A stretch of DNA of 48,977 bases from Candidatus Vecturithrix granuli (GTDB lineage Bacteria; Moduliflexota; Moduliflexia; Moduliflexales; Moduliflexaceae), in the NCBI GenBank assembly GCA_000739535.1, contig DF820482.1:1-48977 (forward strand), written 5' to 3'. The translations under genes and the position numbers were made by a program. Positions 17,090 through 18,747 of the stretch are shown here, piece by piece. The notes beneath the pieces were generated by a model that was not told where the DNA came from, searched no databases, and saw only the letters and a list, made by a program, of their open reading frames with translations. Within the stretch, counting starts at the first letter, position 1. Every line of letters starts with the position of its first letter.

Positions 17090-17124
17090 TAAAAAACCCC
17101 TGTTTACATTGCTGTAAACAGGGG
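17090..17124 (-). terminator. Intrinsic terminator of the PEP-CTERM gene
   Basis: CCCCTGTTTAC (17097-17107) pairs perfectly with GTAAACAGGGG (17114-17124). On the minus strand the stem is followed by TTTTTTATT, giving a textbook terminator after the minus-strand gene. It may also serve the convergent metallophosphoesterase gene. Confidence 0.85.
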
Positions 17125-17150
17125 TGCGTGAAGCTTACTTTAGAGATTAT

Positions 17151-17789
17151 TTACTTTTGGATACGTTTGCGGCTCAGGCCAAGCAGTCCTAACAATCCAA
17201 CGCCCAGAAGTAATACCGTACCAGGTTCAGGAATCGGGGCGATATCATGTACTTCAACTTTCATATCGTTCCAATCCCAGTTCGAGTTAGCTGAAAGCAT
17301 ACTTTCGAGATAGAATCTAGCATTCTCAATCCCATCCCATTCCGAGCGAATGTGCTGAATGCCTACATCTGTAGTATTGAGACTTGAGTCTGTAAAGAAG
17401 GTATATTTATAGTCGTTGCCATCATATACCTTGAAGTAAAATCCGAAGTTCACGTCAAAACCCTGCCATGTTTTGTTATCCAAACTGACTTGCCATGTCC
17501 CACTGTTGTTTTTGAAATATACACTCTTAGCAGACAATGGCTCAAGGGATGGCTCTTCGTTTGCAGCAAAAATCCGAAGCATATTCGTCGGATCCTTTTG
17601 TGAGAATATCCCAAAATCAGATTCAAAGCTTGGACTTTCACCAAAAAGGATGTTGTAAGTGGAACCTGTCTCTCCCGTTGTAAAATCTGTAAGCGTCCAA
17701 TATGGAGCATTTACTACCCCATAAGCAAATACGTTACCTGCAATGAGAACACAACTTAAGAGTACTGTAATTGTTAAGAACTTTTTCAT
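17151..17789 (-). CDS. PEP-CTERM sorting-domain protein
   Basis: This 212-residue exported protein has a signal peptide (1-22, ending NVFA). The mature region of about 160 residues is rich in aromatic and polar residues. At the C-terminus is a PEP-CTERM tripartite signal: IPEPG at about 186-190, a hydrophobic helix (TVLLLGVGLLGLLGL) and the basic tail SRKRIQK. Such proteins are cut by an exosortase and delivered to the surface or matrix. The segment FYFKVYDG through NWDWNDMKVEV resembles a DUF4114-type domain, but I am not certain. No exosortase is in the window. Its upstream region is remarkable: sigma-54 promoter, then two c-di-GMP-I riboswitches. Ribosome-binding site GGAGG is held in a hairpin. 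Confidence 0.93.
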   Translation of the reverse strand: MKKFLTITVLLSCVLIAGNVFAYGVVNAPYWTLTDFTTGETGSTYNILFGESPSFESDFGIFSQKDPTNMLRIFAANEEPSLEPLSAKSVYFKNNSGTWQVSLDNKTWQGFDVNFGFYFKVYDGNDYKYTFFTDSSLNTTDVGIQHIRSEWDGIENARFYLESMLSANSNWDWNDMKVEVHDIAPIPEPGTVLLLGVGLLGLLGLSRKRIQK

Positions 17790-17793
17790 ACTA

Positions 17794-17817
17794 TTGCCTC
17801 CATTTTCATGGTGGCAA
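17794..17817 (-). promoter_or_regulatory. Shine-Dalgarno-sequestering hairpin (expression platform of proximal riboswitch)
   Basis: On the minus strand TTGCCACCAT pairs with ATGGAGGCAA around a GAAA loop with one mismatch. This buries the GGAGG ribosome-binding site of the PEP-CTERM gene. The left arm reuses the 3' strand (GGGTTGCC) of the adjacent c-di-GMP aptamer, so a folded aptamer and a closed hairpin probably exclude each other. The switch would then be turned on by ligand. Confidence 0.7.
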
Positions 17818-17890
17818 CCCGGCTATCTTCTTATTGAAGACCCGTGGCTTTCCGTCCCCGCCTCACAACGGGTTTGGCCTTTTCACGACT
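17811..17890 (-). promoter_or_regulatory. Cyclic di-GMP-I riboswitch aptamer, proximal (GEMM)
   Basis: Read on the minus strand, the class I hallmarks appear in order. These are GGCCAAACC, the P2 hairpin closing in GCGGGGACGGAAAGCC (tetraloop-receptor region), CACGGGTCTT, and the 3' block AGATAGCCGGGTTGCC. It lies about 20 nt upstream of the PEP-CTERM start and feeds a hairpin that covers the Shine-Dalgarno sequence. The recognition is from consensus; a covariance-model search (Rfam GEMM/c-di-GMP-I) should confirm it. Confidence 0.9.
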
Positions 17891-18016
17891 TCCTATTTCT
17901 ACCGAAATGGCTCACAAGTTTCACTTACGAATCATTTCATCGGAGTTAAATTTTTCTGACCGTGCCAAATCGACTCACTTTTCAACTTTAATCCTTTCCC
18001 ATAACTGTCAGGAAAG

Positions 18017-18051
18017 AAAAAAACCGGATTACCTTGATCCAGGTAACCCGG
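18017..18051 (-). terminator. Intrinsic terminator of the distal c-di-GMP riboswitch
   Basis: On the minus strand CCGGGTTACCT pairs with AGGTAATCCGG and is followed by TTTTTTT. The left arm is the 3' strand of the distal aptamer. Terminator formation should therefore compete with ligand-bound aptamer, which predicts read-through when c-di-GMP is high. Confidence 0.8.
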
Positions 18052-18117
18052 CTATCTTATTCTAAGACCCGTGGCTTTCCGTCCCCGCCTCACGACGAGT
18101 TTGGCTTTATCAGGACA
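18041..18117 (-). promoter_or_regulatory. Cyclic di-GMP-I riboswitch aptamer, distal (GEMM)
   Basis: A second class I aptamer on the minus strand: AAAGCCAAAC, GCGGGGACGGAAAGCC, CACGGGTCTT and AGATAGCCGGGTTACC. The core is nearly identical to the proximal copy about 150 nt downstream, whereas the loops and expression platform differ. It begins just after the expected start of transcription from the sigma-54 promoter. Confidence 0.9.
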
Positions 18118-18148
18118 TTTTTTATTTCAATGCTTCGCGCTCTTATAG

Positions 18149-18167
18149 AATGCAAGTGAGATGCCAA
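18149..18167 (-). promoter_or_regulatory. Sigma-54 (RpoN) -24/-12 promoter of the PEP-CTERM transcript
   Basis: On the minus strand TTGGCAT-N5-TTGCA matches the consensus TTGGCACG-N4-TTGCA, with exactly 10 bp between the invariant GG and GC. Transcription would begin near 18140, about 20 nt before the distal aptamer. Confidence 0.8.
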
Positions 18168-18747
18168 AAGCAGTTATTTTACAAATTTTCTGAAAAATTT
18201 TTTTCAATTCCCCTTAATAACAGCCAAAAAGAGGAGTTATAAAAAAACCTCTGTTGGAATTGCCCGAATAAATTTCACCTCAAAAAGACCTGAAAGTGAA
18301 AACTTTTTCGACACCTCATTGCCAAAAATCAATTCTTATGGCAGCTAACTCTCTATAAAATCAAGGTTTATGTCCAAAACTCATTATTGTAAAATTTTTC
18401 GACACCATTTTTGATTCATTCGATATTTTTATCGCTAATTTATTATAAAATAATGAGATCTCTCACAATAACATACTGTAAAGAATGTCGACAGCCTTGA
18501 TATTTGGGAACTTCTAACTGTTTATCGTTGTATTCCTCTTGACAGCCTCTTCAGTAGAAGAAATAGTGACCCATTCGAGAATTTCGGACAGAATATTTTA
18601 TATTCTTGACATTCTCAAAGACGATCATTAGGTTATTGCGAGAAGCTTATTGGCAAGACTATCATGCACTTCAAAAAGAGAAAGCACACGCTCTTATTTC
18701 ACGGGATCTTACAGAAAAAAGCGTGTTTTTTCTGAACATATAAAAAT
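18168..18747. other. Large regulatory intergenic region between PEP-CTERM and TPR genes
   Basis: About 580 bp of A/T-rich DNA without a gene. It contains the three TCGACA boxes, and a weak plus-strand promoter-like pair (TTGACA 18606-18611, TAGGTT 18629-18634). Immediately before the TPR start is the palindrome CAGAAAAAA/TTTTTTCTG (about 18711-18733). A TTGACAGCC string at 18540 repeats part of the 18489 box. Nothing else is recognisable. Confidence 0.6.
18306..18493. promoter_or_regulatory. Three T(T/G)TCGACA boxes upstream of the sigma-54 promoter (candidate enhancer sites)
   Basis: TTTCGACA occurs at 18306-18313 and 18397-18404, and the perfect palindrome TGTCGACA at 18486-18493. The spacings are 91 and 89 bp. 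They lie about 140-340 bp upstream of the -24/-12 promoter, the usual range for NtrC-type enhancer-binding proteins. The two TTTCGACA boxes share the longer string TTTTTCGACACC. Confidence 0.5.

Follow-up and report, generated by a model that had tools for sequence, protein, structure and literature searches.

Tandem c-di-GMP-I aptamers with predicted transcriptional and translational platforms upstream of a PEP-CTERM gene in Candidatus Vecturithrix granuli

Two aptamers in series upstream of a PEP-CTERM gene

We analyzed a 48,977-nucleotide stretch of the Candidatus Vecturithrix granuli genome (here, the window). Its minus strand carries a leader with two c-di-GMP-I aptamers in series, followed by a single-gene unit for a secreted PEP-CTERM protein (Table 1). 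As in known PEP-CTERM/exosortase systems, the protein has the motif at its C terminus and the genome encodes an exosortase, of which we found one (257.5 bits), along with 25 PEP-CTERM motifs. No named PEP-CTERM subfamily scored above its cut-off for the window protein, the THxN family (NF038125) reaching 32.7 bits against a cut-off of 85, and a search of the contigs of other genomes returned no orthologs of the protein or of its leader.

The Rfam covariance models matched both aptamer sites. RF03167 (c-di-GMP-I-GGC; gathering threshold, 59) scored 69.1 bits for the distal aptamer at 18114-18038 (E = 2.2e-14) and 71.7 bits for the proximal aptamer at 17887-17809 (E = 3.9e-15), while RF01051 (c-di-GMP-I; gathering score, 35) gave 66.5 and 67.8 bits at the same two sites. 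In a scan against all Rfam families, these two aptamers were the only gathering-level matches in the window, and nothing above chance was found in the spacer between them (17888-18015). The aptamers are 86% identical to each other and have the same pocket residues. With 29 such aptamers in 8.4 Mb, the chance expectation for a same-strand pair less than 300 nt apart is about 0.015. The first-pass annotation had proposed two class I aptamers with near-identical cores on one leader before a PEP-CTERM gene, with a c-di-GMP-I model search as the check, and our results bear out each of these points.

Table 1. Features of the leader and the downstream gene in the window, listed in the direction of transcription
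Feature	Position	Strand	Basis or remark
17-nt box TGTCGAAAAATTTTACA, upstream copy	18388..18404	-	Fits "motif 1" of Haft 2006
Second box copy TGTCGAAAAAGTTTTCA, 2 mismatches	18297..18313	-	Same box search
Sigma-54-like -24/-12 promoter TTGGCATCTCACTTGCA (GG-N10-GC)	18151..18167	-	Implied +1 near 18140
Distal c-di-GMP-I aptamer	18038..18114	-	Covariance-model match; G20, C21-G46, A47, C92
Intrinsic terminator CCGGGUUACC plus U-run, from aptamer 3' strand	18016..18053	-	Stem 18053-18022, 13 bp
Spacer between the riboswitches	17888..18015	-	128 nt; without further Rfam family or sigma-54 site
Proximal c-di-GMP-I aptamer (L002)	17809..17887	-	Covariance-model match; G20, C21-G46, A47, C92
Shine-Dalgarno (SD)-hiding hairpin UUGCCACCAU-GAAA-AUGGAGGCAA	17794..17817	-	Folding; shares C92 and P1 3' strand with proximal aptamer
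SD sequence GGAGG	17801-17797	-	Within the SD-hiding hairpin
PEP-CTERM protein gene, 212 aa, secreted	17151..17789	-	PF07589; signal peptide by eye
PEP-CTERM motif	17237-17166	-	PF07589, 28.8 bits (cut-off, 20.7)
Terminator after the PEP-CTERM gene	17096..17125	-	Single-gene unit

Competing hairpins at the two aptamers

The 5' arm of the intrinsic terminator is the distal aptamer's own 3' strand. In our folding calculations, the pairing probability of this terminator arm was 1.00 with the aptamer free and 0.20 with the aptamer protected, and the terminator displaced the aptamer once its 3' arm emerged. The energy of the terminator duplex (z = -3.8) lay beyond that of all but one of 200 shuffled sequences. 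As the aptamer's 3' strand is common to the terminator and its pairing depends on whether the aptamer is free or protected, ligand is predicted to permit read-through, making the distal unit an ON switch of transcription.

At the proximal aptamer, the GGAGG of the SD sequence pairs with CC-A-CC of the aptamer end. The stability of this hairpin (17817-17794) was equaled by 2 of 5,000 shuffles of the 19 nt that follow the aptamer and by 1 of 5,000 with the SD sequence held fixed. Opening the SD sequence costs 7 to 9 kcal/mol in the free RNA versus 1.3 to 1.6 kcal/mol (short RNAs) or 4 to 4.7 kcal/mol (longer RNAs) in the aptamer conformer; in a longer RNA, the freed SD sequence can pair again with the coding sequence, at a cost of about 4 to 5 kcal/mol. 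Because the SD sequence is hidden in the free ensemble and cheaper to open in the bound conformer, ligand is predicted to permit translation, and the proximal unit would likewise be ON with ligand. In a model that leaves out ligand and tertiary contacts, the bound conformer lies 7 to 13 kcal/mol above the free ensemble, so that ligand and tertiary contacts must pay this cost.

These calculations agree with the first-pass annotation in that the competing hairpin uses the aptamer's 3' strand at both sites. Its SD-hiding hairpin has exactly the coordinates found here, and its terminator (given as 18017-18051) is present, with a stem and U-run that lie a few nucleotides off. Its proposal that c-di-GMP permits both transcription and translation is what sequence and thermodynamics predict for the two platforms. 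The same region contains a seven-codon frame, MKMEAIV (17809-17786, minus strand); it begins at an ATG inside the SD hairpin, and its TGA stop shares bases with the start codon of the PEP-CTERM gene (ATGA). The overlap may be due to chance or, possibly, to translational coupling.

Two aptamers of the same class in series, with one transcriptional and one translational platform in silico, make it likely that the leader is a bi-mechanism tandem c-di-GMP-I riboswitch, in which low c-di-GMP would lead to termination and a hidden SD sequence and ligand would turn both units on. At low c-di-GMP, the 3' strand of the distal aptamer would pair into the terminator and most transcripts would end at about 18016; with c-di-GMP bound, the aptamer would retain this strand and the polymerase would read on. 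Translation of the resulting full-length message would be gated likewise: the 3' strand of the unbound proximal aptamer would hide the SD sequence and ligand binding would free it. Two serial ON gates would make the response steeper and less leaky and would allow existing mRNA to be silenced as c-di-GMP drops. Processing of the PEP-CTERM product is expected to fall to the genome's only exosortase.

There is a modest chance that the distal terminator switch alone matters in cells, the proximal aptamer being retained or decaying and the SD hairpin acting as a static brake or being opened by ribosomes regardless of ligand. The pairing of the SD sequence with the coding sequence in the bound conformer would fit this reading, as would the fact that terminators are the platform of most aptamers in the genome. 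Against it, the proximal aptamer is intact and outscores the distal one, the stability of its SD hairpin far exceeds that of shuffled sequences, and SD-type platforms occur at two further single aptamers of the genome.

Ligand pocket and promoter

Both aptamers have G20 and A47, as read column by column from the alignment, and C92, which is the C of UUGCC/UUACC (located by eye in the RF03167 alignment and then checked). We take the GGC in the name of RF03167 to mean G20-G47-C92. At position 47, the GGC consensus reads GACGCGAAGCC (G47) and both window aptamers read GACGGAAAGCC (A47), which is why we reject this label as the mark of a new ligand. The best-scoring Rfam label is thus misleading because of the pocket itself: going by the residue roles in c-di-GMP-I riboswitches (PMC3764141), the sequence of both aptamers carries the ordinary c-di-GMP-binder set of G20, A47, and C92. 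The P1b helix is closed in both by C21-G46 instead of G21-C46. An exact-pattern scan found this pair in at least 115 stretches from many proteobacterial, desulfobacterial, and campylobacterial genomes; it is widespread in other phyla and is therefore not a phylum-specific novelty.

Given the top match to c-di-GMP-I-GGC and the inverted P1b pair, one might suppose that the ligand is a different cyclic dinucleotide, for example, cGAMP or whatever compound the GGC label implies. We consider this improbable, as both aptamers have G at position 20, where c-AMP-GMP (GEMM-Ib) aptamers have A, and A at position 47, where the GGC consensus has G; in addition, the C21-G46 pair is common elsewhere. The GGDEF domains of the genome also look canonical: a strict scan recovered the canonical ND-type/GD motif in 16 of the 20 matches. 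A serine in the GGDEF domain marks cGAMP synthases, and no obvious case was seen among the GGDEF domains of this genome. For the window aptamers, we reject cGAMP as the ligand on the basis of G20. Four other aptamers in the genome (L017, L023, L026, and L027) have the cGAMP-type residue A20.

The sign of the leader could also be reversed, or the leader could be insensitive in cells, if slow folding or excess stability of the free aptamer kept the terminator or the SD hairpin from winning. The free aptamers are predicted to be quite stable alone, and the single c-di-GMP-I riboswitch Bc1 binds its ligand with expression barely changed (PMC11218506). This outcome nevertheless seems very unlikely here, since the terminator outcompetes the distal aptamer as its 3' arm emerges and the SD sequence is hidden in the full-length free ensemble.

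Upstream of the distal aptamer lie a sigma-54-like promoter and two copies of a 17-nt box (Table 1). The promoter scores 16.9 of 17.4 (P = 0.002 against 20,000 windows of the same genome). Allowing two mismatches, the box occurs at 40 sites in the genome, versus 3 for the reversed control, and 11 of the 14 perfect sites precede c-di-GMP-I aptamers. A 17-nt motif ending in TTTACA is the predicted site of PrsR and was described only from Proteobacteria among the genomes known at the time (Haft 2006; PMC1569441); our box was compared with it on its length and TTTACA end. The genome also encodes PrsR (613.7 bits; cut-off, 502.6), so that the box, the -24/-12 promoter, and the regulator of the PrsR/sigma-54 PEP-CTERM system are all present, and expression of the PEP-CTERM gene pepA in Aquincola is RpoN dependent (PMC9850573). 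The window leader differs from the genes of PMC1569441 in having a riboswitch between promoter and gene and in a wider gap between the promoter and its nearest box (∼129 nt versus a mean of 63 and a range of 32 to 92). Transcription probably starts near 18140 at the sigma-54 promoter, activated via the PrsR-type boxes. The first-pass annotation proposed a direct tie of matrix or surface-protein export to c-di-GMP; this upstream sigma-54/PrsR-type promoter was missing from its account. PrsR-type boxes elsewhere in the genome cluster in twos or threes, spaced ∼77 to 101 bp apart and often ∼80 or 90 (for example, C2:54155-54327, C16:391546-391741, and C13:283745-283940).

No sigma-54 site was found in the spacer for the proximal aptamer, and no sigma-70 match on the minus strand from 18010 to 17890, so a single promoter probably serves both aptamers; although the 128-nt spacer separates the switches, it is highly improbable that a second promoter within it gives two transcripts, with the proximal riboswitch acting alone.

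Related leaders in the genome and in other bacteria

The genome contains 29 aptamers of the c-di-GMP-I clan, which make up 26 leaders when one doublet and one triplet are each counted once. PEP-CTERM genes follow 11 of these (the window leader, L001, L003, L008, L010, L011, L016, L021, L025, L026, and L028; P ∼ 1e-21 under the rough assumption of 7,000 genes). Sigma-54 sites (P ≤ 0.05) lie upstream of 16 of the 26 leaders, including 10 of the 11 PEP-CTERM leaders versus 1 of the 7 leaders of LLWT-tailed proteins (described below), and are absent from the downstream tandem copies. A genome of the same family (G001) shows a similar arrangement, with a sigma-54 site plus a weaker box-like sequence at all three of its PEP-CTERM leaders. 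Among the matches from other bacteria listed by the C21-G46 pattern scan, none of the 91 aptamers with usable flanks had both a PrsR box and a sigma-54 site.

An ON terminator as in the distal unit was assigned to ∼17 of the 29 aptamers and an SD-type platform to three (L002 of the window, L009, and L028). In four clear cases (L001, L003, L006, and L025), the 3' strand of the aptamer instead serves as an antiterminator, an OFF design; L008, L012, and L014 are likely similar, although their two states are not told apart by the calculation. The class counts thus given draw on two calculations and on judgment by eye, and L013 and L029 were ambiguous. Because OFF designs occur in the same genome, the sign of a switch must be argued aptamer by aptamer. 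OFF-type and ON-type platforms are built with the same kind of aptamer, and some of the OFF type precede PEP-CTERM genes. The modeled platforms of both signs suggest that c-di-GMP controls surface proteins reciprocally.

In the triplet (L020/L024/L018; C14:491404-491910), each aptamer has its own complementary terminator-like arm, and the downstream gene has an LLWTR tail. The P3 loops of L022, L023, L025, and L026 contain AT-rich inverted-repeat insertions of ∼20 to 60 nt with similar sequences, a pattern that resembles the insertion of a small repeat element. Downstream of L001, L010, and L021, the PEP-CTERM motif lies in midframe, followed by a second signal-peptide-like segment and an apparent second secreted domain with no stop codon between; by sequence, these frames are possible polyproteins.

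Many unrelated proteins of the genome have (N)SYLLWT[KR] as their exact C terminus, directly before the stop codon (for example, L015, L017, L018, L022, L023, L027, L029, and L069 to L098). Those whose start was read look secreted, and 7 of the 26 c-di-GMP leaders precede genes of this kind. The corresponding DNA pattern occurs 46 times in this genome versus 6 times for a reversed control, and 0 to 3 times in each of eight other genomes, including three relatives. Five tails compared with NCBIfam and Pfam gave no family in the former and no meaningful match in the latter. Stop-codon read-through is ruled out, as no frame runs on past the stop. The tail is possibly an undescribed C-terminal sorting tag.

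Each ingredient of the window leader has a precedent. Bi-mechanism tandem riboswitches are a named class, with SAM-II/SAM-V and mixed SAM-II doublets as examples (PMC9481103). Like the window leader, these have two same-ligand aptamers in series, with a terminator first and control of the ribosome-binding site second; they consist of SAM classes and are described as OFF with ligand, whereas both window aptamers are c-di-GMP-I and predicted ON. Tandems of the window's aptamer class are also known, with 347 doublets, the commonest tandem in that survey, and 12 triplets (PMC9481103), as well as the triplet Bc3-5 (PMC4759541). The survey filed the doublets as pseudo-cooperative without comprehensively surveying their platforms. 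Such tandems are treated as repeated switches with a more digital response; in contrast, the platforms of the window leader are predicted to act at different levels.

Tandem c-di-GMP-I riboswitches also precede yebA transglutaminase genes in Bacillota (PMC12452182). We examined nine c-di-GMP-I tandems from a group of genomes around G055, which are of Paenibacillaceae type judging from gene content. Eight of the nine place a U-run terminator-like element downstream of the first aptamer and an SD sequence 1 to 2 nt from the second and so share the terminator-then-SD layout of the window leader; they differ in their weak predicted SD masking (a difference of 0.2 to 2.6 kcal/mol), gene, and lineage and in lacking a PEP-CTERM gene. 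In Methylophaga strain GP59, c-di-GMP riboswitches precede three PEP-CTERM genes and one VPLPA-CTERM gene (PMC12530212). This ties the same ligand class to the same gene family, but through four separate riboswitches, with no tandem bi-mechanism leader described.

Within the open-licence literature, a stack of both switches behind an RpoN-type promoter seems to be a new combination; the novelty is the combination and its genome-wide wiring, not any part, and how c-di-GMP-I aptamers work is left unchanged by this tandem. If our reading is true, the leader would be a bi-mechanism tandem in which two same-class c-di-GMP aptamers both act as ON switches for a defined surface-protein gene, and disabling single units would make it possible to measure directly what is gained by adding translational control to control of termination. 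The leader would also join PrsR/sigma-54 control and c-di-GMP riboswitches, described separately for PEP-CTERM genes, on the same leaders. More tentatively, and with somewhat less than an even chance in our estimation, the PEP-CTERM regulon of this lineage may be a multilayer gate, with PrsR/sigma-54 acting at initiation and c-di-GMP at termination, and at translation as well for the window gene, while c-di-GMP, through near-identical aptamers of ON and OFF design, swaps one set of surface proteins for another. The window gene would then be the most tightly gated member of this regulon.
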